Shown: in pieces, positions 3,001-62,400 of the stretch
Layout: every line of letters starts with the position of its first letter
Numbering within the stretch: the stretch's first letter is position 1
Assembly (NCBI GenBank): GCA_030268105.1
Contig: BSDZ01000020.1
Span: forward strand, 62,001 to 126,000
Direction: 5' to 3'
DNA: 64,000 nucleotides
Source of the DNA: Volvox africanus
Lineage: Eukaryota > Chlorophyta > Chlorophyceae > Chlamydomonadales > Volvocaceae
Notes under the pieces: model-generated
What the model saw: only the letters and a program-made list of their open reading frames with translations
What the model was told of the DNA's origin: nothing
Databases searched by the model: none
Position numbers and translations under genes: made by a program

Positions 3001-6000
3001 TTCACCGCTCGCCGCGTGCACCTCAGCGGCAGTGGCCACCTCGCCGCCGCAGTGTCTGATCCCCAGTCCCTTCGCAGCTGCAGCGACACAGGCGTCGTCC
3101 GCCTGCATGAGTGCTCCATCACCTACCTCGGGAGACGGACTCGATGTCGGCCATCTCCTGGGGGGCACATCGCTATCACCCCCCTGCCTCCCTCTGTCCT
3201 TGCAGCTACCGAACCGCCCTCCACACGCCAGGATACAGTCCAAACACAGAAGCTGTGACTGTGAAGTACCCCACACAGACGCAGCTGCTGCAAAATGTCC
3301 CGTAATTGGCGAAGCAACACAAGAGGCGGGAAGGGCGGGACTCAACACCGCATCACCAGGAGCAGGTCCAGCAGCAGGAGCAACAGGACCAGCGAGTCCA
3401 GGGTCGGCTTCCACTCGGGCGGTTCAGCGAGAGCCAAGCTCCCACGCCCATCCACTTGACGGGCCCTTCGTCCGCCGGGCCTGCAGCTCGGGACACCTGG
3501 CCATGACAGCAGGCGAGGTCTGTGTGGCTGCCCACATGGCCAAACCCAACGGCGCCGCTGCATCTGATCCGGCGCCCCTAGGCCCCGCAGCACCGAAGCG
3601 GCTCCCCAAAGGTCTCCCCCCTGCTTCAGGGCGCTCCTCTTCGGGCGATGGGAGGGCCATTGCGAGCGGCCTCGCGGCTACCGCGATGAGCTCTGATGCT
3701 TCCGGATCAACCAGTGCGGAGGACCAGGCTCGGGGGGGCCAAGCGGAGGGTCGGGCTGGCGGCGGCGCAACAGCGGGTGCAAGGCGGCCTGCACCTCCCG
3801 CCTCTTGCCCGTATAAGCTTCGCTGCGTCGCTCACAGCCTGGGCGGCATGTCGGTGCTGATCCATCTCATCAACCGGCTGAGGGAGGGCCGCCCGCATAA
3901 CGTGAACCGCCTGCTGCTGCTGACACCTGCGGGCTTTCACAAGTACTGTCCCAAGGTGAGGCGTCCGAGCGGGGTCTCTGCGGGTTGCTGCTGCTAGAGC
4001 TGCGAGGGTGCCTGGGGGAAGGGCGCGGATGGACCTCTTTGCACATCGTGTAATAGTGACGTTTCCGGAGGCTGAGGCTGAGGCTGAGACAAGGACCTTT
4101 GGGCTTTTTACTTTTGAAGCCGAGCCGCAATGTCTCACACCCCCGTGTGGCATAATAATTCCTAATTTCCTCGTTTCCTCATTTCACCTCCCTTCCCTGC
4201 GACCCTCACTCTTAGTCCTCGTTCCTTCAGTACCAACAGGACTTGTACACTCGCCTCCCCTCCTTCCCTCCTTCCCTCTTCCCCTCCTTCCCTGTCCTCA
4301 CATCACATCACACCTTCTCCAGGCTGCCAGACCCATCATGTGGACGCTGCCAATCGCTGCCCGGATGCTGCGCGCTGTCCTGGGTCGGTCCTTCTGCTTC
4401 CCGCTCTACATCCCAACACCTCTGGGCCGCGCGCTGACGTTCAAGTTGCTGCTCTCCGCCAGCCGCATCCCGGGCCTGGGGGAGCTGTTGCGGCTGGGGT
4501 TCAAGGTGCGGCGGGTGTGACCGTGTCTGCTGTGACCCAGCTGGGAGGCAGAGGACGGGGGAAGGGACCCTTTAGCCGAACTGGCGCGGTGTGTATGTGT
4601 GTGTGTATGTATGTATGTATGTATGTACATCTGTGTTCGTCTCGGTCGGCTCTCCGCCGGGTACCGTATTGGGGTATCGCAGGTGGGGCGCTCTCCCAGG
4701 CGGCGACGTGCGATGCTATTTTAGCTTCAGAGGTTGTTTGGATCGGGGAGGGCGTGTCTCAATGCCTGGGTCGGGAGGAGGCAGAGCGTCGTACGTGATG
4801 ATGCATGCTGATGGGGGAAGTCCTGTTCTTAAATGCATTTCCTCCCCCCACCCCACTCCGCCCCACTCCGCCCCGACCCGCGTGTGTCTTTCCCTTTCCT
4901 GGGACGTAAAGGCCCTGCTGAATGGCGACATCAGCCAGTGGGATCGGGCCCTGCAGCTGCCGCACTACAGCGCCCAGGACATGCCCGCAATCTCAGTGGA
5001 CCAGGGTAGGTGGGAAACGGTGGGCCTAAACGCTGCGGACGTTTCTGTCGCGAATAGCAGGTATACGCTCAGCTTCAACGGTCGTTCAGCGTGAGCAGCA
5101 CGCTTAGGTCTGCACGGTACACCATAACCCCCCTTAAATTTCCTCGACTGAACTGCAACTGCTCATTATCTGCTTCTTCTGCTGCTGCTGTGCACGCCAG
5201 TAGCGACTCAGCAGTCATGATGAGGTCAAGGATGTCCGATAATCCGCGACCGCGTTCGGGTCATGTGGCCCTCCCTGTTCACGGATGTTTATTCCCTGTG
5301 TGCTGTGTGCTGGGGGGGGATGGGGGTTCGCTGCTCACCCCCTGCAGTGCTGCACCTCATCCAGCTGGTCAACACGGGGGAGTTCAGGTTGTACGACTAC
5401 GGCTCCCCCGCCGCTAACAAGGCGCATTACGGAGTCCCCCTGCCGCCGGACGTCTCCTCCGAATACTGGCGCCTAGACATGCCGGTGCACTTGGTGGCTG
5501 GCCGGAGGGACGGCATCATTCCGCCACCCAACATCCACCGCCACCTGGAGGCCATGAGGGCGCAGGTGCGGGCGCTGCGGGCGCTGGGGGGGGAGAGAAA
5601 TGGTTGCGGACTCGGGGGTGTCTCGTAACTTATCACTTTGGTGCAATGCTTGCAAGGGCTGAGAGTGCTGGACTCTTTGCTCTGGGGTTACTTGTTGGTC
5701 CAACAGGCTGCAGCGAGGTCTCCAGAACATCAGGAAGTCCCTCACGTTCACATCGCCAGGGCTAGAGGTGCACGAGGGCCCTCTGTGCAGATGTGTCGTT
5801 GGCTCATCGCCCGGCTTCAGACGCCTCTGGACTGACCTCACCAGTTTTCCTCCGCACCTGATTTCATGTCCGGGTGTAACGAGCAAGTTCCTGTTCCCAA
5901 CTGCATCCCCCCTCCCCCCCTTCCCCCCCCCCCCATACACACCCCCACGCTGCAGGGGGTTGCGGTGAGCTACCGGGAGTTCGACTTCGGCCACCTGGAC

Positions 6001-34223: not shown

Positions 34224-34467
34224 TGTTGAGAGGTAGACTATCAGACATAAGGAAGCCTGACGTAATTACGAGAAAGGAGAAGTTACATATTATCTGATGG
34301 TAAAAAAAGTTCGAAAAGATCGTTCTGGAGTCGGACATATACTAGCGCGTATAGCACTACAAACAGTACGAGCGCGGGTCGATAACGTACCGCCGAGTAC
34401 AGCTACAACAGCATGATTGTTGCTAGTATGGATATGCTATATCCAACTGATATACCATTTCATAACA
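34224..34467 (-). repeat. Solo LTR (family LTR1), TSD GTGCG
   Basis: A 244-bp copy of the copia LTR found at 57287 and 60567. It has TG...CA limits (TGTTGAGAGG to TTTCATAACA as read on plus) and identical 5-bp flanks GTGCG at 34219-34223 and 34468-34472. It lies 56 bases upstream of the WD40 gene's start codon. Confidence 0.93.
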
Positions 34468-40500: not shown

Positions 40501-43500
40501 TGTAATGCATGTGCAAATTTCTGTAACAACAGATACACTTGGCCGCAGAACTTCGAGTGTACGACATCGACAGCGGCAAGTTAATCTGGAATCAGAAAAA
40601 TCCTGATTTTTGTAAAAGCCGCGTGATTCCAAGTGGAGATTCTGGATTGGTGTCGTACGATATCAGTGGAGGTTTTCAGTCATGGCACATGCAGGGCAGG
40701 GTTGTTTGGTCGGGCAGTGGAGAAATCCACTTATACGATTTATCCCAGCGCACAGTTCAATTGGTAGGTCAATAATTCGTAGATGTATAAGATATGCACA
40801 GGCTTACTCACAAATCATTAACACATATAAAGGAAATAAAGGGCAAGTAAAATAGGGACCAACCATACGTTTCACACCAATCAGGGCCTTTGAATCCATC
40901 CTGTTGTAGAAATACACCGGGATGGTCGCCGTATCTATCAAATCCTGTTCCTTGTTACCTGCAGACCATCAACACGGAAGAACATCATACATATGGATAT
41001 GGCCTGTATCCCCAAGTCCATTGGGAATCACAGAAGATGATCACGACGTCCGATTTTGGCGAGGACAACTGGGTGTGTCATTGGAACCTGAGTACAGGGG
41101 AGATGATCCAGAAGTACGACAGAATCCACATGAAGGCGATAACTGGTGCATGGCTGACGGCCGACGGATCACGCTGTATTTCGGTGTCCAGAGACAGAAC
41201 GGCGGCCCTATTCAGGCTTGATAATGGTACGTATAGTGGAAAGGGGAGCGACATGGGGGTTTAACACTTTGAAGAATTATTTTCAGTATTTCAATAACGT
41301 TGTTCCTCGACAGAAGGTGTAGTAGTCGTACATGTACGGCCCACACACCAGCACAATATCAAGGTGCAGAAGCACCCTGTCAGCATCTAGAGAGGCCTTT
41401 GCGGCTCTAAACTACTACACAAGGTCATGGGTCTGCTCCGAAGCTAAGCTACTTTACAAACTGTGTGGTGAAAGTTATTGATTTTTTTGAAGTTCGTTTT
41501 TGTTGTTCGTTAGGGCTTGGGTTCCTTCCCTAGGCCTCTTAATACAGCATTCTGTAAACAGAAATGGCAAATGGCTGATGAGCTCATCAGCTATTACTGA
41601 TACTCGAGTATCAACTGATGAATAGGTTGGCGGGTTAATTATGGAACTTGAAGGAAAATTCCACAGAATCTCAAGCCATTATTCAAAATTGGCCAATTAA
41701 GAGGCATGATTGTGAATATCCTATCCACAAGCTTCATGTTCACGTGCTCACTGATTGTGCACATTGAGAACATTTGGGAATCGTGAACGTTAACATGTAT
41801 TTTTAGTCCCTTATTTTTTTGTCGTAATAAAAGCATTGAGTTCGAAAAGGATGGATTGGTCTTTTCCAGGGTTAAAAAGCCACGAATTTTGGAAGGTCAG
41901 GCTTCATTTCGGACGCTGCTAATGTTTTCACATATTTAGCTACGCTGTGTCAAGACAGATACTGGAAACATGTGTTTCGGTGAAGTTGGGTTGCTTTTTT
42001 CATGTTCTTGTGTTGAAGTCAGCAAAGCGCCCGGCCCCTCGTGGGCCGTATTACTTGCTCTAACATTCTTTCGTATATGAGTGTTGCTCACATTCCAACA
42101 CCCCCCCGTGAGCGACACTCCGTCGAGCTTCACGGTCTCCCGATAGCTGCCTCGTCCCGGCCTCCCTGCCCTGGTCAACAGCCAGCGGGATTCGAACCGG
42201 CGACCTCTCGGCCAGCCGCGCACGTGCGCTCGGGGCTCATAACCTATTGAGACGTAGACTATCAGACATAAGGAAGCCTGACGTAATAACGAGAAAGTAG
42301 AGTTACATATTATCTGATAGTAAGGAGTCCTAATAGTTCGTTCTAGAGTCGGCACATATACTTGTGCGTATAGCACTACAAGCAGTACGAACGTGGGTCG
42401 ATAGCTTACCGCCGAGTACAGCTACAACAGCGGGATTGTTGCTAGTATGGATCGCTATATCGAACTGATATACCATTTTATAACACGCCCCCTCGAGACA
42501 TGCCTAGCAACAAGTGAAAGAAGATAATTCCAACCAGGGATTCTTCTTGAAACCGAAAAGCTAAAGCCAAACGAGTTCGCCCCAAACAAACTTAGAAAGC
42601 TTACTCGGCCAACCCCATCGCCGTAATGCACTTCTTAAACTTTATCTCTCCAAGTGCCTTGGTTAACACATCTGCTACCATATCCTCCGTCGAACAGTGC
42701 GATAAGGCAACTTCCTTCCGCAGGACTCGTTCTCGCACTAGATGATGTTGCACGTCGATGTGCTTAGAACGAACCGACATTATCGGGTTATTCGCAAGGC
42801 TCATCGATCCCTCAGAATCCGTTCGAATCTGAATAGCGTGTGTCCTCAGACCCAAGTCTCTGGTCAGCTTGCGAAGCCAAAGTGCCTCCCGCACTGCAGC
42901 TGCCGTGGCCTGGTACTCTGCCTCCACTGTTGAAGCTGCCGACGTGCGCTGCAATTGGCTGTTCCAGCTGATAGCTGCGCCGTTTAGCAAGAATACGTAG
43001 CCAGTTGTGGACCTCCGAGTGGCTGGATCTCCAGCCCAGTCGGAATCACTGTAGCCCACCATGGTGAGATCGCCATCTCCGTCATAGCATAATCCGAGCT
43101 CCTTGGTACCCGCCAGGTATCGCAGCACCCCCAAAGCCAAGCCCATGTGAACCTTAGATGGGTTGCCCATGAAGCGCGCCAGAACGCTCATTGCCTGCGA
43201 GATATCCGGTCTTGTGCTCGTCGCCAGGTAGTTCAATTCGCCGACAAGCGCCCTGTACTTGGTGTTGTCTACGAGCTCCTTGTTGTTGTCTTCTGCAGGC
43301 AGGGCTCTAGTACCAGGAGGTAGTGGGGTCTTTCGAGGCTTTGCATTGACGAGTTGATGTCGCTGCAGCAGCTCCTCAATGTAGCGTCGCTGCGATAGTT
43401 TTACCTCCCCGTGCGCTCCCCGGCTGATCTCCATGCCCAGGAAAACTTTTGCCTCTCCAAGATCTCGAATCTTGAAGGCTTGTCCGATTTCTGTTTTTAC

Positions 43501-46500
43501 TCTCCTGATCATTGCCTCGTCTTCTGAGGTGATGATGATGTCGTCCACGTGCACCAGCAGGTAGACGATCTCCTTCTCGTCCTTTTTGATGAACAGTGCT
43601 GGGTCTGCTACTGACGGTTTGAACCCCAGCTTGTCCAGCTCCGCCGCTAGCTTCATATACCAGCAGCGTGGGGCCTGTTTCAGCCCGTAGATTGAGCGTA
43701 GAAGCCTGCACGCCTGCTCTGGATCTGCTGACTCGTAACCAGGCGGCTGCTGCATCCAGAGCTCCTCCTCTAGCTCCCCGTTCAGGAAAGCTGTCGAAAC
43801 GTCTAGCTGATGGATCGGCATTGCTTTAGCCGCAGCCACCGCCAGGAGCATACGAAGCGAAGCAAAACGCGAGGTTGGAGCAAAGAGCTCCCCATAATCA
43901 ATCCCCGCCCGCTGCTCGTAGCCCTTCGCCACCAAACGTGCCTTGTAGCGCTCGATCTCGCCATCCTCTGCACGTTTGACCTTATACACCCACCGACAAG
44001 GCAGAATCCGCGCACCTGGCGGTGGTTTTGCTAGCTCCCAGGTCCCATTTGTGAGCTGTGCTGAGATTTCCTCATCCATGGCACTTCTCCATTCCTCAGC
44101 ATATGGGCCGTCAGTGGCCTCCTGGTATGAAGCTGGCTCTGGTACTTCTTCCTCGATTGCAGCATTGATCCGCCCGAACGTAACCCTTCCGTTGGGCTCA
44201 TGCCTCCATTCAATCAGTCGCTTTCGCTCACGTAGTGGATAGCGACGTTCCTGCATATTAACGTCTGCACCGTCGTTGTTGTGGTTTTGCTGCTGCACCG
44301 GCCCTTCGCCTGTCATAGCGTCTCCACCATTGCCTCCGCGGGACTGCGCTGTATTTTGCATCCTGGGAAACTGTGCTGCTGGTATGCCTGCGTGCCTCTG
44401 TGGCGCCGCTGTCTGGCCGCTGCTGGTGGATGCACCATGGTTCACTTCAGCAGCTCCCTGGTCCATGTCGGTGTTGACCGGCGACCTCTCGGCCAGCCGC
44501 GCACGTGCGCTCGGGGCTCATAACCTGTTGAAGTCAGCAAAGCGCCCGGCCCCTCGTGGGCCGTATTACTTGCTCTAACATTCTTTCGTATATGAGTGTT
44601 GCTCACATTCCAACATCTTGTCGTCATGGTATATGGCTATGAACCCGGTTCCCTTCCATGAACCTTTCTTTAAGAGACATTGTTGCGCACACTGTGTCAG
44701 AAAAAGAACGCCGATGCAGCCGTAGCCTACGTATAAACCTGCAAGCTCAAAGCAGATTAGTAGCCCGGTTGCCGCGTGTCCAACTGGTGAGCTGTACCGT
44801 GCCTCAAGCCTATTAAGAGACAAGAACCAAAGTCTCAAGCAAGCAACGGTATGTTACAAAACAGCTAATGAGGTATGAGAACCTCGCCAAATATATACTC
44901 ACAGAACAAAGTGTCGTACCCTCGGACGCACTGATTAGGCAAGTAATTAGTGGCTCCGCGCCGGAAGTCCAAACGCCAGTCTTACTCCATGACAAAACCT
45001 CCATGACTCCACGACAGAAACAGCCTTACCAGGCAAGACCTAGACCTTACTGAGAATACCAAACGTTAGGACAGTAATATAAGGAAGTCAGGCCGAAACT
45101 CAACACACTGGAACCTGAGATTAGGATTAAACGAGATCTGTACATAAGCGTATGCGATACAGGTGTAATGATATAAAAGGATTAGCCAATAGCCTCACGG
45201 CAGGCACCACATGGGTAACTCGGTTTGGCTACAAACGCACTCCTTATCATAACACTAGCAAACCCACAACCATAGTTAATACCAAAGCTATTACCCAAAT
45301 AACCACTATGGCTCGTTAAACACACTTCGGCCTCGCTAACCCAAGCTCGTCACGTTGCTGCATTACCAAGCGCTTCACCAACATCGGATAACACACGTAT
45401 TCATAACAAAGATCTCCCAGATTCCATAAAGTTAACCGCCTACAGCAGCTTGCATAGCCAGCAATACCTAGCCAAGATTAGACGGGCTGCTGCATGTAGG
45501 CGGGCTGCTGCATGTAGGCGGGCTGCTGCATGTAGGCGGGCTGCTGCATGTAGGCGGGCTGCTGCGCAGAGGCCGGGTTTTAGGGTTTTAGGGTTTAGGT
45601 AACGAATAAGGAGAACGAATAGGGAACGAATACGGGGCACAAAGTGCCACATGCACGAATCATGAAACAATTACCGAGCAGAGAATAAGGTAAGAGACCA
45701 GTTCAGATAGGTTGCGTGGTGTTAAAGTCAGCAAAGCAACACGTAGTACTTGAGAGCCGCAAAAGCCTCACGAGACGATCCTGATATGGTGCGCATCTGC
45801 ACCTCTATATCGTGTAGGTGTGTTACCGTACGTATACAGCTACTACAGGTTGCCAAACAGATATTTAGTCTCTTTACTTATGTGAAAGTTCTCACTCAAT
45901 GCTACATTTTTGATTTTACAAGAACTTGTGATGAGCATAGTAAGAGTTACCTAAGCAACAGCATAGTAAGATTTAAACGACTATCATGACTATTGTTGAC
46001 TGGCCGCCGCAGTCACAGTTTTGGAGGTTAAGACGGCACATTGCAGCAGGAACCCTAATGATGCCTGTAAAATGTATCTTATATGAGGACTGTTGAACTT
46101 TTATGTCTGCTAGTCCGTATTTTGGGAGTGATGCTGTATAGTTGATCTATAGTCGATGCATCTTTGTTCAAGTTTAGTTCATCAGAATAGATTTTGTATA
46201 CGATGTTTCCTATCGTCTATAGTTGATTCGACTATAGCGTGTACTATATTTGATCAACTATAGACAATTTAGAAATATTCGATGGCTTTTGCAGATAAAT
46301 TTGGGTCAATTTACAGTCTTATCCAACAGTTATTTCAGAGCATGTGCTTGCCATGCATAAGTAGTACCTCTACTACTTACGTCCCATGCAGCATACATAT
46401 CAATCAGTAATACACAAGTATCCTAATATCCTATTGCCATGCTGTTATCAACGAACTTCTGGAGTCCTCTACATCTATCCATCCCACCTCACTTAAAACA

Positions 46501-49500: not shown

Positions 49501-50261
49501 CATCCTCATGTGCGGGCAGTTGTTGAAGTCAGCAAAGCGCCCGGCCCCTCGTGGGCCGTATTACTTGCTCTGACATTCTTTCGTATATGAGTGTTGCTCA
49601 CATTCCAACACCCCCCCGTGAGCGACACTCCGTCGAGCTTCACGGTCTCCCGATAGCTGCCTCGTCCCGGCCTCCCGGCCCTGGTCAACGTCTCAATAGC
49701 AGTACATGACGACTACAACACATAGTTTCTTTTGTGATGTTGCCATCCCTGCTTCAGCTTCTCAACATATACTGTCTAGTGTGCATATATTCATGTATGC
49801 ATGATGTCCGTGTCCTCTTCTCCTGAGATGTTTGGCATTGATATACAAATGCATCTCGTAGCTACCTATAGTATACATCTGTCCGTCCTTGACCCTTACT
49901 TTCGTACATGCATGCATACTGTCACCTCCAGGCTGCTTTCGTCATCTAATTGTATTTTTCATCTATTCTCCTCGCTCCTGGCATGGTCATATGCACGCAC
50001 GCAGGAAACTTTATCAAGAGGTTTAAGGGCCACGAGGACTATGTAACATTCGCTGCCTTGTCGCCTAATGAGGACATCCTGGTCACTGCCTCAGATGACG
50101 AAACCGTGCGGATTTGGGACGTAGACAAGGAAACCCAGCGGCACGTCATTCAGTACAAGGATTGGATACATAACATCATCTTTCTGCTATCCACAAATTG
50201 GATCGTTATCAAAGACGTTCTTGGTCAAGTCATTGGGTTTGATACAGTTAAGCGTGATTAA
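34524..50261 (+). CDS. WD40-repeat protein, about 735-754 aa, transposon-filled introns
   Basis: Exons 34524-34874, 36333-36542, 36948-37271, 37805-37885, possibly 38889-38945, then 39397-39538, 39751-40116, 40549-40763, 40965-41226, 50005-50261. All are GT-AG with matching phase. At least nine WD-like blades are visible, e.g. GYEDGHVSVWK, EKHGSLFVWNVETG, VYSDGSIRVFD, LRVYDIDSGKLIW, GEDNWVCHWNLSTGE, SRDRTAALFRL, SDDETVRIWDV, enough for tandem beta-propellers. Such proteins are scaffolds; the partner cannot be told. ATG 34524 is the first in the frame. The junction 41226/50005 recreates a blade (RLDNG-NFIKRFKGHEDYV), which supports an 8.8 kb intron. A decayed inverted paralog lies at 16587-19564. 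The exon at 38889 and the region 37886-39396 are the weakest parts. Lower GC than the starch synthase gene. Confidence 0.8.
35480..35660 (-). pseudogene. Copia reverse-transcriptase relic in intron 1
   Basis: The minus strand gives YKPVRGG...DGRIECFTARLVAKGYG, matching WVYKVKRAEDGEIERFKARL of the intact element at 58.6 kb; the nucleotide sequence also aligns (CCACCAAACG-GCC). It is degenerate and truncated on both sides. Confidence 0.7.
36716..36877 (+). repeat. Dispersed repeat of about 160 bp, copy 2
   Basis: Aligns with the reverse complement of 17020-17178. It lies in the WD40-gene intron between exons ending 36542 and starting 36948. Open in one frame in both copies, but the two translations share only part of their length. 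Confidence 0.8.
38259..38688 (+). repeat. tRNA-related SINE with 16-bp target-site duplication
   Basis: A 430-bp insertion bounded by perfect 16-bp direct repeats AACCCCCCTATCCACA (38243-38258 and 38689-38704), ending in an (ATA)n tail (ACCATAATAATAATAATAA). The head contains a tRNA-like anticodon stem (GCGAC...GTCGC) and T-arm (CCAGTTTGAATCTGG). These are the marks of L1/LINE-mediated retroposition. It sits in a WD40-gene intron. Confidence 0.9.
41317..41420. mobile_element. Small inverted-repeat element (MITE-like), copy 1
   Basis: 104 bp bounded by perfect 9-bp terminal inverted repeats GTGTAGTAG and CTACTACAC; AAG on both sides may be a 3-bp target duplication. Related copies are at 48388-48477 and 54163-54261. 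No coding capacity. Confidence 0.75.
42245..42485 (-). repeat. LTR1 inside the chimeric element
   Basis: A 241-bp copy of the copia LTR, correctly placed downstream of pol and its purine tract (CTCGAGGGGGCG on minus), but followed by TRIM leader DNA rather than host flank. It ends CTCAATA instead of TCAACA. Confidence 0.9.
42601..44466 (-). CDS. Ty1/copia reverse transcriptase-RNase H polyprotein, 621 aa, 5'-truncated
   Basis: One open frame begins with a Gln/Asn-rich linker (residues 1-75) and RRYPLRERKR, followed by the copia RT (WVYKVKRAEDGEIERYKARL, QLDVSTAFLNGELEEELWM, YLLVHVDDIII with the YVDD-type catalytic motif as HVDD), then RNase H (GYSDSDWAGDPATRRSTTGY, STVEAEYQA, KHIDVQHHLVRE) and a normal C-terminus. 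Gag, protease and integrase are absent; the frame starts at the point where copia DNA joins the TRIM leader. It could yield RT/RNase H if expressed, but is not an autonomous element. Closest relative in the window is the element at 57287-60799. Confidence 0.93.
   Translation of the reverse strand: MDQGAAEVNHGASTSSGQTAAPQRHAGIPAAQFPRMQNTAQSRGGNGGDAMTGEGPVQQQNHNNDGADVNMQERRYPLRERKRLIEWRHEPNGRVTFGRINAAIEEEVPEPASYQEATDGPYAEEWRSAMDEEISAQLTNGTWELAKPPPGARILPCRWVYKVKRAEDGEIERYKARLVAKGYEQRAGIDYGELFAPTSRFASLRMLLAVAAAKAMPIHQLDVSTAFLNGELEEELWMQQPPGYESADPEQACRLLRSIYGLKQAPRCWYMKLAAELDKLGFKPSVADPALFIKKDEKEIVYLLVHVDDIIITSEDEAMIRRVKTEIGQAFKIRDLGEAKVFLGMEISRGAHGEVKLSQRRYIEELLQRHQLVNAKPRKTPLPPGTRALPAEDNNKELVDNTKYRALVGELNYLATSTRPDISQAMSVLARFMGNPSKVHMGLALGVLRYLAGTKELGLCYDGDGDLTMVGYSDSDWAGDPATRRSTTGYVFLLNGAAISWNSQLQRTSAASTVEAEYQATAAAVREALWLRKLTRDLGLRTHAIQIRTDSEGSMSLANNPIMSVRSKHIDVQHHLVRERVLRKEVALSHCSTEDMVADVLTKALGEIKFKKCITAMGLAE
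44850..45410. repeat. LTR3-type repeat, solo or partial
   Basis: Positions about 45100-45395 align with 61870-62180 (shared ATAACACTAGCAAA, ATTACCCAA, CACTATGGCT, CACACTTCGGC). That second copy lies next to a gag relic and primer site, so this family is an LTR. Outer limits here are uncertain. Confidence 0.55.
45480..45567. repeat. 18-bp tandem repeat, about 4.7 units
   Basis: Perfect head-to-tail units GGGCTGCTGCATGTAGGC end seven bases before a telomere-like block. Confidence 0.95.
45575..45599 (+). repeat. Interstitial telomere-like block
   Basis: About three TTTTAGGG/TTTAGGG units, all in the same orientation, directly after the 18-bp tandem array. Confidence 0.85.
46506..46577. repeat. 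17-bp tandem repeat, about 4 units
   Basis: Units TTACGCAGCCTAATGTA repeat head to tail, the last one shortened. Confidence 0.95.
46660..47835 (-). pseudogene. LINE relic: RNase H and C-terminal zinc finger
   Basis: On the minus strand, fragments in order: FKWSDGSC (RNase H start), NTILRAELSAIRAA and ATDSQSSL (RNase H core), HISKHKALL, then CPICRSCKK...SRAHILGGC, a C-x2-C...H-x4-C finger typical of the end of LINE ORF2, and HVAYIEVGYTGD. Frameshifts and stops separate the pieces. Similar fragments may extend to about 48150. It lies in the long last intron of the WD40 gene. Confidence 0.75.
48388..48477. mobile_element. MITE-like element, copy 2 (inverted)
   Basis: The reverse complement of the 41317 element: GCCGCAAAGG...GGGCCGTACATGTAC...GCTACAC. 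The terminal repeats are partly degraded. Confidence 0.7.
48826..49455 (-). pseudogene. nad5: Nuclear copy of mitochondrial nad5 (NUMT), partial
   Basis: Read on the minus strand, two frames separated only by a stop give the N-terminal part of NADH dehydrogenase subunit 5: GSWFSVGSFSASWSF, then DPRLGLFLGYLSLFTG, SADNLLVMHVGYEG, YLLIGYW, KAILVNRITDG, FGSLEYD and KSAQI. Positions and spacing match respiratory complex I ND5, a membrane proton-pumping subunit encoded in chlamydomonad mitochondrial DNA. The in-frame TAA at about 49191, lack of both termini and location inside an intron, next to a TRIM fragment, show a transferred, dead copy. Confidence 0.85.
49521..49698 (-). mobile_element. TRIM-like element fragment with TSD GCAGT
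   Basis: One 90-bp LTR2 (49521-49610, one base different from the pair at 42-44.6 kb), the adjacent TRIM internal DNA, then the ten bases CGTCTCAATA that form the U5 end of LTR1. Perfect 5-bp flanks GCAGT at 49516-49520 and 49699-49703. Confidence 0.8.
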
Positions 50262-53496: not shown

Positions 53497-56400
53497 ACCG
53501 GCAAGTCCTCCCCAATGATTTTCGCTGGCGATGCTGTCAAGAAGTGCAACATTATGAAGCTACGCCCCGTTTCGCCATCGGGGGCCGCCAAAAGCGGTTC
53601 GGCACTACAGCTTCCGCTGATGATCACAGTCCAACAAAACTTCCGTATAAACGTGCTGCACCTTCACACACTATCAGTACGCCAGTCAATATCGAGCAAG
53701 GTAAGCACATTTGTGTTGTCCATTTATGTTGTGCATGTATGTAATGTATTGTATGTGAAACAAGACGAGATCCTTTGGTTGAGTGACCTATGGGTTTACT
53801 GTTACACCTACGAACAAATGTGCAACCTTGCTTAGCTAAGCATGGTTGCACATCTTCCGTTCGTAAGTGTATCAGCCCAGAGCGATATTTGTTGGAACTC
53901 GTCAGAGGGCGGCACAAAAATATTCTTCAGGAAGCCTTTAATAAGCTTGGGTACGCAGTCTTCGACTTCCAGTGACGAGGTGAGGAGTCACCAGTGGGGA
54001 GTATTGATGGATTCACTCAGATGTGTAAATATATCACCCTATAACCCTTATATCATAGTCATGAATGTAACGCATGCGTTTAGCCTCCTCAACACAACAG
54101 TCCGGCCATTACACGTCTCACACTTCTGCAGCTAGACCCTTAGCTAGTCCTTAACCATCTCTTGTAGTGGTCGTACATGTAAGGCACATACAACACGATA
54201 TAAGATGCAGAAGCACCATCTCGGCATCTCGAGAGGCCTTTGCGGTTCTCAACTACTGCACCTCTGTGTAGTTCCTTTATGTCCTGTATGTCCGTTGACA
54301 TAAGGGATCAGTTGTTGATCTACAAGGTTGATCAGTCTTGGCATGTCGCCCTGTGATACAGCCAAAAGTTGCACCCAGCACGTGTCATACTAGGTACAGA
54401 GGGGGTTTGCAAGTGCACGCATGCATCCTAAAATTTTCCGAAATTATTATTATTATTACATTACTCCGGCCGAAGCCTGGCGTGTGTTAAGGGGGAGACG
54501 GCACTGAGGGGGTACACTTCACGGACTCCCTATACTCCATATCTCCACCGCTATCCCGGTTGATCGTCCATCTTCTTCGATCAACGTTGAACCATTATCG
54601 CTGGCCATACGCCACACTCTCGCTGTGGGACACGACCCGTTCTTGCATCTTGCCAGTGTCGGGTGCTCCTGTACATATACACTAGGCCTCCTGAAATCTG
54701 CACCCTGTGCTTGCGGCACCCTTGTCCTGGCGGAGGGTACTCAGCCCCCTCCGACCCGCTTCAGCCGCTTGGGAATTCTGCACCCCTCGTCTTAGTCTCG
54801 TGCGAGGTTCGGCCTAGCCATGCTTTCTCAGTAGCCTCCAATGAATTTCTTGTCCAGCTTCAGAGCGCCTTGTTTGTCCAATGTCTCCTCATTCACTGCT
54901 CCTAGCCTTCTGGTGATGGGCTTACCACCACATACTCACAAGTTGCTGTAGGCCACGAGCAACCCGTGGTGACAGCGATGGGTTTCGAACCCACACCTCC
55001 AGTCGGAAACGTCAGTGCTCTTCCAATTAAGCTACGCTGCCTAAGAGTTCCCGAGAAACATACCACCTAACATTTTACCTACCTTCGTGCCTTCCTACCT
55101 TCGTGCCTTCCTACCTTCCTGCCTTCCTGCCTACCAACAAGTGGTTAATACCATTCGTCAAAATAGATCCGTCCCGCTATATTGCATAAGTGTTACCAAT
55201 ACGCACGTGATTACGTAGGGTGAGAGTAACTGTTTTGGGCTTCCAGAGATCGTTGTATTGTCTCTTGCCAAGACGTTTCCTGGATTGGCGGTTGCGCCTC
55301 ATAAGGACAACGGGGAGACATATTTGCACAGGTGAGTTTTGAATATGGTATCAAACAGACTCCACAAATAAGCCGAACTTACCTCTGCCCGATCTTGTTA
55401 ATACAAACATATAATACTATGTGTAGTATGTAGATCGTGCTGTATAGGTACCCCTCGTTGGCGCACATAAATAAACCCTGTGTAGGATGTACCTTTTGCG
55501 ATTGGGGCGTACATAAGCTAGAAACACAGAATCAGGATCAGAGCCAAAGCTTCATCCTTCACACTGACAACATAGCTAAATGCTCAGGTTTCAAATTATC
55601 GATGTTATGAAAAATAACATATCTTAGATTTGATTTGATTATCTTACTGACACAAGTCAGCCGCAAGCATTTTTCCTAGCGGGGCAGACGTTTCGATTTC
55701 TATCCATGTATATGATGACCGATAAGTGAATTTCCCGCAACAATGTTCCGCAACCATGATCCGCAAAAACATTCCCTAGCATCACTAATATGCCATTATC
55801 GCGTCCGAAAGCGCCTATGTATACTTGACATTACTCATGCTCTCACACACACAGCCGTGGCTGCCACTAACTTGCGATAGCAATCGCGTATTCTATGCAA
55901 GAATTTATCTTGAACAATAATCCCTTCGCGTATCATTATTATATGCTTGGGGCAGCATATGGCTTAGTATTTACTTCGTTGCTCGTGACGAACGAACGGG
56001 CCAAGACAGCAATGCCATTATGCGCGCAATTGCATAATAGTCGTATATTAAATGCATATACATACATTCATGGTTGCAACATTGCACCGTGGGATGCCTA
56101 CTATAAGCCTCTGGCGAAGTGAGGTTAAGCTGCTCAACGATAGATTTAAGAGATCGCGCCACTGGGGCCATGGAGACATTGACGAAGTCAGTGAAATCTA
56201 TTAGGTGAATTAATTAACGCGATATGGTTTCTTTATTTTATCCTAAATGTTTCGGATTCAATATTATGATGCCCATTTCTGCTGCTTTGCTCATGCCAAT
56301 CAATATACTTAGGAGTACATCACTTGTAACATGCAGGGCAGTCGAGCATAGTAATATCGAGTTTCTGCGCAACCTACTGAAAACCAGCCATTTCGCCATT

Positions 56401-59400
56401 ACGTCAGCGCCACTGCCGCAAGATTGCAAGGGCGTAACACCCCTCGATTTCGCATTGGAGACAAAGAATCTTGAGTTGGTTGAGCTATTCCTTTCTAATG
56501 AGCTTGAACGGCCGCCGCATATGAGACTGGCAGCTAGGAAGGTAAGAACATGCAAATATGTGTGTGATGGGAGTCAAGGAGTGCTTTTTAGTCTGCCTCT
56601 TGCAAGCCCTGCGAACCTAGGACTGGGCTAAGCGCTCAGGGCTTAAGTATTATTAATGAGCACTACAAAAGGCCCTAGGCTCATAAAACATCCTGCATGC
56701 ATTTGGCTGGTGGCGACTATTGTTGAAATAAGCGTAGGATCGTGCCACCTACCTGGCAGAATGTAAATATAATTGAAAGCACATTTAATCGCATTACCGA
56801 TTATAGTATGGTCAACATCTGCAGCTAAGCAAGTGTTGTATCATGCTCTTCACGAAGGCATTACAAATTCTGTACGGGTGTCGGCTTCAAGGAGGCCGGA
56901 GAAAACAACGGAAAACAACCTGACGATATGTTAGATACTGTTGGAATGTAGACTACCGGACATTAGGAAGCCTGACGTTATTATTCGAGAAATTATTCGT
57001 TACATAGTATCCGATAGACAAAATGAAGACTGAATAGTTCGGTCAGGAGTTGGCACAAATAATTGCACGTATAGCACTACAGATGGGACGAGCGCGGGTT
57101 GCTAGTGTACTCCCGAGTACAGCTCTAAAAACGCGATTGTTGCTAGAACGGATTGCTATAAATCCCAACTGATACACCATTTCATAGCAGATACGGTTTG
57201 GACATTGGCTCGCACAAGTAAGGTTAGTTAAAGTATGAATAACCGTATCCATTGTATCGGCATTATTGTTAATAATAAGGGATAACTATTGAGACGTAGA
57301 CGATCAGACATAAGGAAGCCTGACGTAAATACGAGAAAGTATAAGTTACATATTATCTGATAGTAAAGAAGTCCGAATAGTTCGTTCTGGAGTCGGCACA
57401 TATACTAGCGCGTATAGCACTACAAACAGTACGAGCGCGGGTCGATAGCGTACCGCCGAGTACAGCTACAACAGCGGGATTGTTGCTAGTATGGATCGCT
57501 ATGTCCAACTGATATACCTCTTCATAACACGCCCCCTCGAGACATGCCTAGCAACTAGTGAGAGAAGATAATTCCAACCAGGGACTCTTCTTGAAACCGA
57601 ACAACTTAAGTGAAACGAGTTCGCCCCAAACAAACTTAGAATGCTTACTCGGCCAACCCCATCGCCGTAATGCACTTCTTAAATTTTATCTCTCCACGTG
57701 CCTTGGTTAGGACACCTGCTACCATATCCTCCGTCGAACAGTGAGACAAGGCAACTTCCTTCCGCGAGACTCCCTCCCGTACTAGGTGATGTTGTCCCGA
57801 GCCCCTTAGTACCCGCCAGATAACGAAGCACCCCCAAAGCCAAGCCCATGTGTGCCTTGGATGACTTCCCCATAAAACGCGCCAGAACACTTATTGCCTG
57901 CGCAATGTCAGGTCTTGTGCTCGTCGCCAGGTAGTTTAGTTTGCCGACAAGCGCCCTGTACTTGGTGCTGTCTGCGAGCCCCTTGTTGTCGTCTTCTGCT
58001 GGCAGGACTCTAGAACCGGGAGGTAGTGGGGTCTTTCGAGGCTTTGCATTGACGAGTTGATGTCGCTGCAGCAGCTCCTCAATGTAGCGCCGCTGCGATA
58101 GCTTTACCTCCCCGTTTGCTCCCCGGCTGATCTCCATGCCCAGGAAGACTTTCGCCTCTCCAAGATCTCGAATCTTGAAGGCTTCTCCGATTGCTGTCTT
58201 GACTCCTCTGATGAGTGCTTCTTCTTCTGAGGTGATGATGATGTCATCCACGTGCACCAGCAGGTAGATGATCTCCCTCTCATCCCTCTTGATAAACAAT
58301 GCTGGGTCCGCTACTGACGGTTTGAACCCCAGCTTGTCCAGCTCCGCCGCTAGCTTCATGTACCAGCAGCGTGGGGCCTGTTTCAGCCCGTAGATTGAGC
58401 GTAGGGGCTTGCACGCCTGTTCTGACTCGTAACCAGGCGGCTGCTGCATCCAGAGCTCCTCCTCTAGCTCCCCGTTCAGGAAAGCTGTCGAGACGTCTAG
58501 CTGATGGATCGGCATTGCTTTAGCCGCAGCCCCCGCCAGGAGCATACGAAGTGAAGCAAAACGCGAGGTTGGGGCAAATAGCTCCCCATAGTCAATCCCC
58601 GACCGCTGCTCGTAGCCCTTCGCCACCAAACGTGCCTTAAAGCGTTCGATCTCGCCATCCTCTGCACGTTTTACCTTATAAACCCACTGGCAAGGCAATA
58701 TCCGCGTACCAGCCGGCGGTTTTGCTAGCTCCCAGGTTCCGTTCGTGAGCTGTGCCATGATCTCCTCGTCCATGGCACGACTCCACTCTTCAGCATCTGG
58801 GCCATCGATGGCCTCCTGATACGAATCTGGCTCCGGGATCTCGTCCACGATTGCAGCATTGATTCGCCTGAACGTCACTCTGCCGTTGGGCTCGTGCCTC
58901 CACTCAATTAGTCGCTTTCGTTCACGTAAAGGATAGCGACGTTCCTGCATGTTAACGTCTGCACCGTCGTTGTTGTGGTTTTGCTGCTGCACCGGTCCTT
59001 CGCCTCTCATAGCGTCTCCGCCATTGCCTCTGCGGGACTGCTCTGTATTTTGCGTCCGGGGAAACTGTGCTGCTGGAATGCCTCCGTGCCTCTGTGGCAC
59101 CTCTGTCTGGCCGCTGCTGGTGGATGCACCACGCTTCACTTCAGCAACTCCTCGGCCCACGTCGGTGTTGACCGGTGTATTTTTACAGCCCCCTGACGAC
59201 GGAACGCCGCCAGACTCCTCGACATCCTTCTCAGGTTCATCATCGGAATCCTCATAGCTATTTCCAACGGTTGACTTGTCGAATCCAACCTCCGCACATG
59301 AGCGGCCTTTTCTGGTCGGTTGCCGTACTGCATGATGATGGATAGGATACAGCCGTCCCACCTTGTCAGCTCTTAGGATTGTTCTCCCCTTGTCCTGCAG

Positions 59401-62400
59401 AGTGCCTTGTGATGGCTCAGCAGAATCATAGCGCCACGCTCATCGAAGATGCCTGCTGAAATCAGCTTCACGGTCACCTTAGGTACCACATAGACGTTCT
59501 TGAGCTCAATCTGCAGCCCTTTAACGGTGTTTCTCCACATGGTGTAACGACCCACGTGCGTCGGTTGATGCCTAGAGCCATCGTAGCCAACCACCGTGAA
59601 TTTCTCTTCAGGCTGCACAGCTCGCACGTCCTCCAGCTCTGACACGTCGTAGGTGATATGCCATTCTGATGCCATGTCCAGATGCCATGCGTCTGACCGT
59701 GACTCACTTCCAACAGCATACGCCATTTTGGTGGGCTCCCTGCGCTGAAGGTTGCCCCCGCCGCGACCATTGTTTTGTTGCTGTTGATCCACCAGACGCT
59801 TCTTGCACACTCCGATGAAGTGACCTGGCTTACCGCAGTAGTGGCAGACGGCGTTAGATTTACTCCTCTGCTTACTTGTCTGATGACGGCTTGTAGAGTT
59901 GAATTTTCCACCACTTCGGTGCGTGATGAATGCCGATGAAGACTTGCTGTTGTCCTCGTCCGGTATCACATACGCCATTAGCGCGACCACTTGGGTAAAG
60001 TCCAGCTCCCCTTCTCACATTGTGAGAGCACATGATACTTGCTCGGAAGTCCTTTGATGACTATTGTAGAGAGCTCCGTGTCAGAGACTACGTGTCCCAC
60101 ATCCAGCAAGTTGGACTGCAGCTGTCGCGCGCGGCTGATATAAATTGGCAGCTCCTCTCCATTGGCCATTTTGAAGTCACTTAGCTCCTGTCGTAGGGCT
60201 ACCTTTCTCGTATTGCAGGTTGATGTGAACGTAGCCGCCAAAGCGTCCCAGGCGGCCTTCGCATTTGCCGCCCGAACAATTGTTTGGAGGTGATGGTTCT
60301 TGACGTTCTTGGCCATCACACTCTTGACCTTGTCGGACATGGTGACATCCGCCTCTGCAATTGGTGCTTGTAGCAGGGCGTGACTGTATCCAAGCTCCGC
60401 GCACAACAATTGGAATCGCAGCTTCCAAGTTGAATAGTTGTGCAGGTCCAGCGGTTCGTCCAGCCTATCCTTTCCCATTGTGAAGACCTATAAACGCTAA
60501 GATCAACACTAGAAATGGGCAAAAGATGTTAGGCTCCACGGTCAACGTTGACCGGGGCTCATAACCTATTGAGATGTAGACTATCAGACATAAGGAAGCC
60601 TGACGTAATTACGAGAAAGTATAAGTTACATATTATCTGATAGTAAAGAAGTCCGAATAGTTCGTTCTGGAGTCGGCACATATACTAGCGCGTATAGCAC
60701 TACAAACAGTACGAGTCGATAGCGTACAGCTACAGCTACAACAGCGGGATTGTTGCTAGTATGGATCGCTATATCCAACTGATATACCATTTCATAACAA
60801 TAACGCTAATGAAAACCGGGTAATATAAGGGATGTTTAACTGAAGCTTTTCTTTGGTAAACTCCTTTATAATCCATCTTAACTATAATGACTTAACTTCT
60901 TGGTAAAAATAGGCGGCCATTTCTTAGGATCAGAACCATATCTTTCCATAATCCTATCAAGCCATAGGTCGGTATCAACTCTACCTGATATAACGTTAAA
61001 ATTATCCATATGACTTAAATTTACTTTTGCGACAACCGCATTCCCTCGTTTTATCAGGAAATACGTTGAGGCCATATCGGTGATTTTAATTAATAAGAGA
61101 TATATTCTCTTTGCGATAACATGAAAGCACTTCTGTAAGCCTCGGTTTCTCTGAGGTTAGGTAGAAGAATCTGAGTGGTAGTTTGCTGAATCAGTGTATG
61201 AGAATCAGTGTGTGAGAAACATCGATGAATCCTTCTTGCGGTCCTCTGGCGACACCTAAGACCTACGACTCACCACAACTTGCGAGAAGTCCACTCAATC
61301 TCTCGCTCAGTCAGAGCAGTTGTGGTCATGCGAAATTTCCGTGGCAACCCCTTGATAACAATCATAGAAAGCTCCACGTCGGAGACTGCATGCATGACCC
61401 ATGTCCAGTAGGTCTGACTGTAGTTGGCGAACACGGTTAGAGGGGCAACTCGTCTCCATTGGTAATCTTGAGGTCACTCCGTTCTTGCCAAAGTGCTTTC
61501 TTTTTCGTGCTATAGGTTGACACGAACGTAGCCACCAAAGCATCCCAAGTAGCGTTAGTGTTTGGCGCTCAAGCAATGGTTTGGAGGTGGCGAATCTTGA
61601 CGTTCTTTGCCATCACACTCTTGACATTGTCGGACATCATCGTATCCGCCTCTGCAATCGGTGCATGTAGCAGGACGCAACTGCATCCAAGCTCCGCACA
61701 TAAAACTGAAATCACAATCTCTACGTCGCGCAGATCCAGTGGTTCGTTCAGCTTATCCTTACCTATGGTGAAGACCTACAAACGCAAAGATTGACACTGA
61801 TGATGGGCAATAGGTGACAGGCTCAGCGGATCACGTTGACCGGGGCTCATACCTGTTAGAAGATAGCGGTGAGCGCACTGGAACCCAAAATTAGCGACAG
61901 ATGAAAGCTTTACATAGACAGAAATAGCCAGACATAAATAAGAACCGCATGAGCAACTCCGGTCTGACTAGGAGCGCACTCCCAATTATAACACTAGCAA
62001 ATTCACTATCATAGTAAATACCGAACAATACCTATTTCCAATTATTAGGTATTACCCAATATATCACTATGGCTGACTAGGGGGTACGTCCCACACACTT
62101 CGGCAATATTGCTTGATGGTTATACGATTGCCTTCCCCAGCGCTTTGCCAACAGCTCGGAAGTATCGGATGACAGCACAAATATAACACTTTCGCAGCGT
62201 CTCATAGCCGATGCACTAAGCGTCTCACGAGGGCTGACAGGCCACACCACACACTTATCACTGACAACATGCAGACCATTACATGCTGCTTGACCTCAGT
62301 GATTATTCCCTATAGCTGGAAGACATGCCCACCATATGGGACCCCTCGAGAGAACGGCAGCTCGACGAGATGTTGTATGTCATGTGCTCCTTTTGGAGCA

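Follow-up and report, generated by a model that had tools for sequence, protein, structure and literature searches.

Joins at a shared, predicted tRNA-Met primer site suggest strand transfer between a TRIM and Ty1/copia elements in Volvox africanus

It has been shown that single insertions can carry three long terminal repeats (LTRs): Sabot and Schulman 2007 reported four such insertions with target duplications, each formed within one family, and proposed R-to-R template switching as their origin (PMC1950507). The gene-less terminal-repeat retrotransposons in miniature (TRIMs) are moved by other elements, and for plants eleven larger relatives, of which four had a complete set of genes, were reported in 2016 and interpreted as their probable ancestors and helpers (PMC4717578). 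Here we describe an insertion at positions 42006-44620 of a 64,000-nucleotide stretch of Volvox africanus DNA (C20:62001-126000 of the 141-Mb genome assembly; "the window" below means this whole stretch). Like the insertions of Sabot and Schulman 2007 (PMC1950507), it has three LTRs of which the outer two are alike, is flanked by a 5-bp duplication and can be explained by switching between two packaged RNAs as proposed there, but its LTRs do not all belong to one family. We regard it as very probable that this insertion is a TRIM x Ty1/copia chimera which arose by strand transfer at a common primer site during reverse transcription and was then inserted whole.

The element lies on the minus strand, and in that sense its order is LTR90, primer site, TRIM leader, copia reverse transcriptase region, LTR1, primer site, TRIM leader and interior, LTR90. 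A first-pass annotation of the window had described two identical 90-bp LTRs with a perfect TCTTG duplication enclosing a copia pol frame, its 241-bp LTR1 and a duplicated 49-bp leader, and all of these are present. The two copies of LTR90 (3' LTR in the element sense at 42011-42100, 5' LTR at 44526-44615) show 0/90 differences, the copies of TCTTG lie at 42006-42010 and 44616-44620, and the leader including its primer site occurs at 42196-42244 and again at 44477-44525. Adjoining the 3' LTR90 is a predicted TRIM polypurine tract, read from the sequence as C7 on the plus strand (42101-42107), to which the function usual in LTR elements is assigned, followed by the TRIM internal region (42108-42195), the first copy of the leader without its primer site (42196-42230, from repeat analysis) and a predicted primer-binding site, GGTTATGAGCCCCG in the sense direction (42231-42244). 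Here begins a complete copia LTR1 (42245-42485), 99.2% identical to the LTR of the standalone copia at locus L033, and then the 3' part of copia with a predicted polypurine tract and the reverse transcriptase/RNase H region (42486-44483), 99.6% identical to L033; RNase H has no separate Pfam match in this part and is presumed from its position. The second copy of the leader (44484-44511, likewise from repeat analysis) and a second predicted primer-binding site adjoining the 5' LTR (44512-44525) complete the element. At the left join, between copia and this second leader, the proposed short match common to both does exist; alignment extends it from the pentamer ACCGG to 7 nt, ACCGGCG (44477-44483). 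No target duplication surrounds the copia part at the inner joins of the window copy, and LTR90 and LTR1 do not match each other (BLAST within the window, E up to 1e-3).

An open frame of 638 residues from stop to stop (42601-44517, minus strand) gives RVT_2 (E 1.1e-71) as the only domain found; its first 12 residues are read-through of the TRIM leader, after which come the 626 C-terminal residues of the copia frame. The gag-to-integrase region is absent, with about 730 of 1355 copia-frame residues gone, and the element does not have the full Ty1/copia gene order of gag, protease, integrase, reverse transcriptase and RNase H. At 2605 bp and with a reverse transcriptase frame it is TRIM-like at its ends only, since TRIMs have no coding capacity. 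Among 40 places scored of 1217 candidates the join between leader and pol was found in the window only, and the window copy is therefore without sign of further movement. The proposal that a small element here acquired a reverse transcriptase thus holds literally for this one copy, which, on the evidence of its missing gag-to-integrase part and the single occurrence of its left join, does not amount to a demonstrated working new element.

The TRIM and the first copia family both read GGTTATGAGCCCCG in the sense direction directly at the LTR edge, and the complement of this stretch is nt 26-39 of tRNA-Met genes in the same genome. The match to the tRNA-Met gene, ending at nt 39 in each case, extends over 14 nt in the TRIM, 14 nt in the first copia family and 15 nt in the second. 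The shared 14-nt site is predicted to be the primer-binding site for tRNA-Met, and by this match at the LTR edge the primer site shows the complementarity to the inside of tRNA-Met that is characteristic of Ty1/copia elements. A tandem cluster at C15:2413661-2429190, with one gene per ~607-627 bp, holds 26 of the 29 genome-wide matches to the tRNA-Met pattern (up to 1 mismatch); ARAGORN calls four tRNA-Met in the 3-kb piece of the cluster examined, and from their sequence the C15 genes are probably initiator tRNAs. Half-tRNA priming is the mode of Drosophila copia, in which nt 1-39 of the initiator tRNA-Met serve as primer. The window itself contains, at 54967-55041 on the minus strand, a tRNA-like gene with an unclear two-base anticodon (ARAGORN; Rfam tRNA 44.4 bits). 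Within the TRIM leader region (42178-42222, minus strand) a box-A-like TGGCCGAGAGGTC lies close to a box-B-like GGTTCGAATCC, yet neither ARAGORN nor Rfam calls a tRNA at these positions.

Both parents exist as independent families. Standalone TRIMs have the structure LTR90-145 bp-LTR90, about 325 bp in all, with 5-bp duplications (L002, L007, L008, L073, L074, L080, L081 and L084); they are shorter than 1 kb, have direct LTRs and are too short to encode a retrotransposon protein, and their LTR90 and interior are 96.2-99.6% identical in nine copies (these eight and L082). Perfect 5-bp duplications, within the 4-6 bp typical of TRIMs, are found in 8 of the 15 loci of the TRIM set, the remainder of which includes hybrids and rearranged copies. 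The standalone copia L033 has 241-bp LTRs, GATTT on both sides and one minus-strand frame of 1355 residues, in which gag, pre-integrase, SH3 and RVT_2 are above cut-off, Pol_BBD is also matched, rve scores 29.4 bits, just under its cut-off of 32.6, and RNase H has no separate match. A second copia family (copia2) has an LTR of about 348 bp (LTR2), whose far edge is TTAACA in both L085 and L078, with different duplications. The parental joins are common in the genome, TRIM-leader/site/LTR90 at 85 places and copia-leader/site/LTR1 at 107 (up to 3 mismatches), with 0 places for each when read backwards as a control. These two numbers count places and not events and include segmental copies, such as a cluster on C86 and C104, and the 85 TRIM-type joins include the window's left end and at least two hybrids of the L078 type (C86:2801775, C104:7336). 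Other repeats in the window, at 34228-34467, 49521-49689, 57291-59439 and 60571-60799, comprise another fragment of the TRIM, additional copies resembling LTR1 and a degraded member of the copia family found in the chimera. On C17:568979-825065 there are nine places, several about 8 kb apart, where the leader and primer site of copia2 adjoin a different LTR-like start, TGTTATAGTC, perhaps that of a further LTR family.

The join that defines the window copy recurs. The TRIM-leader/site/LTR1 join, which had been placed exactly at the edge between LTR1 and primer site and is indeed found there, occurs at eight places besides the window (40 scored of 776 candidates), and at 6 places in a search allowing up to 3 mismatches. 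The reciprocal join, copia-leader/site/LTR90, occurs at 7 places (up to 3 mismatches), and a join of the TRIM leader and site to LTR2 occurs at 13 places (40 scored of 449), some of which are segmental copies. Recurrence at separate places argues against assembly error as the source of the right join and of its reciprocal; the left join is without such support and could still be an assembly artefact. Sixteen join loci were read, with the duplicate pairs L085/L086 and L078/L079 each counted once. Three-LTR insertions are found in the window and at L030, L028, L027 and L025. L030 (C75) has the entire copia interior between TRIM LTRs, plus an insert, and L028 (C8) has most of copia there, with internal deletions; L027 is strongly deleted and nested inside another LTR1, and L025 contains an insert and has its 5' LTR90 cut down to the last few bases after a 4-nt match (TTCC), an additional join at a short match comparable to the 7-nt one of the window copy. 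Two-LTR hybrids are also found, with LTR1 at L035 (LTR90-copia-LTR1 in the sense direction), L032 (LTR1-TRIM-LTR90) and L029 (of the same type as L032), and with LTR2 at L085 (LTR2-TRIM-LTR90) and L078/L089, which have an additional copia2-leader stretch. A palindromic TRIM/copia composite at L036:7667-9005, in a reverse-complemented C28 locus, has inverted LTR90s at its ends and AGTAC on both sides, and is perhaps another multi-switch insertion. Mirror joins, in which the copia2 leader and site meet an LTR90-type start, occur at 11 places, 8 exact and 3 with TGTTAAAGTC (one mismatch). Six of the 11 lie on the same strand as a TRIM-leader/site/LTR2 join and about one TRIM length before it (about 60 bp less in the C17 pair); by these coordinates alone a sense order LTR2-site-TRIM-LTR90-site-copia2, with the TRIM inside copia2, is indicated at the six places, several of which are close together on C10 and may be segmental copies.

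Most of these insertions are bounded by target duplications. Perfect 5-bp duplications flank the three-LTR insertions (TCTTG in the window, TCTTT at L028, CAACC at L030, CGTAG at L027 and GGCTC at L025), the two-LTR hybrids L035 (CAAAC), L032 (CGACA), L085 (ACCAG) and L078/L089 (ATTGT), and the composite L036 (AGTAC). They are found in 10 of the 11 loci with both ends recognised, against 0 of 110 swapped left-right flank pairs, which rules out chance as their source. An insertion that has two different LTRs and yet an intact duplication is difficult to produce once integration has taken place, and strand transfer at the primer site is therefore the best explanation. The first-pass annotation had proposed template switching at a common Met-tRNA primer site and integration as one unit, a reading supported by the 14-nt match, the recurrent and reciprocal joins, the two-LTR hybrids with perfect duplications and a copia part without a duplication of its own.

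In retroviral reverse transcription there are two obligatory strand transfers, the second at the primer site (PMC3187697). For the window insertion, the TRIM and copia RNAs would be packaged in one particle; the 14-nt site that they share is observed. Minus-strand DNA primed on the TRIM RNA would reach the primer site, pair with the copia primer site and copy copia U5-R; the normal R-to-R transfer would then give a complete LTR1, and synthesis would continue through the reverse transcriptase region. In the window copy only, a second switch at ACCGGCG would return synthesis to the TRIM leader, with loss of the gag-to-integrase part. Closure of the product at the primer site by TRIM plus-strand strong-stop DNA would make the outer LTRs identical, and copia integrase would insert it. 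Without the second switch the expected order is LTR90-copia-LTR1-TRIM-LTR90, which is that of L030 and also, apart from internal deletions, of L028. One transfer alone, of plus-strand strong-stop DNA of one element to minus-strand DNA of the other or by an equivalent minus-strand path, would give L035 and L032, for which the two routes are indistinguishable here.

The copia parts of the five chimeras (window, L025, L026, L028 and L030) do not form one clade (approximately unbiased test, p-AU 2.2e-06; tree of 25 rows), which implies more than one origin: at least two are supported for chimeras with the first copia family, and those with LTR2 come in addition. The grouping of L028 with L030 lacks firm support (92/68). 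An alternative test with rows joined across inserts (p-AU 5e-42 for the five, 0.026 for the window, L025 and L026) was not relied on.

Several observations weigh against primer-site strand transfer as the origin of the series. The evidence for switching is genome sequence. A primer site acting as a general exchange point would allow direct hybrids between the two copia families, but none was found: the first copia leader and site joined to LTR2 was found at 0 places (up to 3 mismatches), and 0 of 22 places with the copia2 leader and site end in LTR1 (up to 2 mismatches). Five of the 16 loci (L026, L031, L034, L037 and L087) lack a recognised second end, and at L026 the surrounding flank is duplicated across 776 bp or more. 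The duplication at L029 is imperfect (ATTTT/TTTTT, 4/5), and since 6 of the 110 swapped pairs are also within one mismatch this locus lends no support; at L025 the right edge was set where CAACA meets GGCTC, and its duplication is thus partly chosen. A single clade of the three young chimeras (window, L025 and L026) is not rejected (p-AU 0.111), and the TRIM tree, without a starred branch, decided nothing. As a separate observation on L026, its left flank (L026:1-776) is repeated to the right (4847-5622) at 99.6%, and the right copy continues beyond GATAG with no element there, as an empty site would.

Among other explanations, the one that survives best is homologous recombination after integration, in which a copia circle with one LTR, or copia cDNA acting independently of integrase, would recombine at the primer site with a TRIM already in place. 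One crossover between such a circle and the TRIM at that site would give the exact order of L028 and L030 with the TRIM duplication kept, and for Tf1, integrase-independent insertion is reported to occur preferentially at homologous sites, the primer site among them (PMC12786077). This route does not, however, yield L035, L032, L085 or L078, in each of which the two different LTRs stop exactly at the duplication, since beyond the LTR edge no homology exists. The homology available to it is only about 14 nt, and the window copy would need a further event at the 7-nt match. The outer LTR90 pairs differ at 0/90 positions in the window, 0/90 in L027, 5/91 in L028 and 4/91 in L030, and the copia end branches are 0.0019 in the window, 0.0057 in L028 and 0.026 in L030; in these few insertions outer-LTR differences and copia divergence appear to go together, contrary to what recombination after integration would give. 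We therefore consider it unlikely. Considerably less likely still is descent by deletion, the model applied to rice OsajRetroS10, in which a larger autonomous ancestor with 90-bp LTRs would have given rise to the TRIM by deletion and left the chimeras as its remnants. Large elements with 90-bp LTRs do exist (L028 and L030), but the copia pieces in the window, L025, L026, L028 and L030 match, at 94.8-99.7% identity, a standalone family that has other LTRs, and each of these five contains an LTR1, so that L028 and L030 do not look like a TRIM ancestor. Nested insertion of copia into a TRIM followed by deletions, although nesting does occur in this genome (L027 inside another LTR1), is rejected as the least credible explanation of all, given one LTR1 rather than two, a copia part without a surrounding duplication, LTR1 joins at the primer-site edge in the matched copies, and reciprocal and hybrid forms that it leaves unexplained.

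Strand transfer at the primer site may have a wider significance. The TRIM and its likely helpers appear to have been caught exchanging parts, and since the parents are unrelated apart from it, the point of exchange can be narrowed to a single short site. We consider it possible, at odds a little below even, that the half-tRNA primer site is a recombination hub at which LTRs and entire gene sets pass repeatedly, and in either direction, between TRIM RNA and at least two copia families, that new LTR families are born by module swap at this one point, and that the primer-site duplication of rice OsajLTRA10 is a trace of the same event. Such a hub would produce TRIMs that have gained genes (LTR90-copia-LTR1-TRIM-LTR90), copias in which one LTR is that of the TRIM (LTR90-copia-LTR1), TRIMs in which one LTR is that of a copia (LTR1- or LTR2-TRIM-LTR90), and copia2 elements with a TRIM located behind their own primer site; this last form, the one indicated by coordinates at six places, would keep equal outer LTRs and may replicate. 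A switch at the primer site would let a tiny element gain genes or swap ends in a single step, and the helpers are suggested to be elements whose primer site is the same and whose LTR ends are similar. Normal target duplications are found even around insertions whose two LTRs differ, an observation relevant to what integrase requires. In such genomes the two LTRs of an element may be unlike already when it inserts, and dating by LTR divergence would then be misled. For comparison with rice, we take TGGTATCAGAGCC to be the plant initiator-Met primer site. In the available text of Gao et al. 2016, the TRIM and the large copia of the rice pair OsajRetroS10/OsajLTRA10 have common LTRs and flanks, a 25-bp stretch containing TGGTATCAGAGCC is duplicated at the breakpoint, and the case is read as the birth of a TRIM by deletion (PMC4717578). 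By analogy, the Volvox case suggests that capture at the primer site, rather than deletion, may account for the rice pair.

The parents of the insertions of Sabot and Schulman 2007 belong to one family each (Angela, Squiq, Opie) and are joined R to R. The Volvox parents, in contrast, are unrelated in LTR and interior, which makes the switch point readable as the primer site, and the Volvox series includes reciprocal and two-LTR hybrids beyond the forms of that study. VejuL and BARE-2 are elements that carry sequence of another element. Both have been named as apparent template-switch products, and unlike for the Volvox series no primer-site joins with reciprocal products are described for them in that paper (PMC1950507). 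New insertions of Onsen in Arabidopsis have recombinant LTRs, mostly fitting the first strand transfer, and in the accessible part of the report these recombinants are within one family, without an unrelated partner or gene capture, whereas the Volvox hybrids are between unrelated families (Sanchez et al. 2017, PMC5668417). A literature search in which subscription journals were poorly covered found no published TRIM x copia chimera with a primer-site join. Insertions with three LTRs, formed by template switching inside a single family, were already known; as far as this search goes, what is new in Volvox is the unrelated parents, the primer site as the point of exchange, the reciprocal hybrids and the involvement of two partner families.

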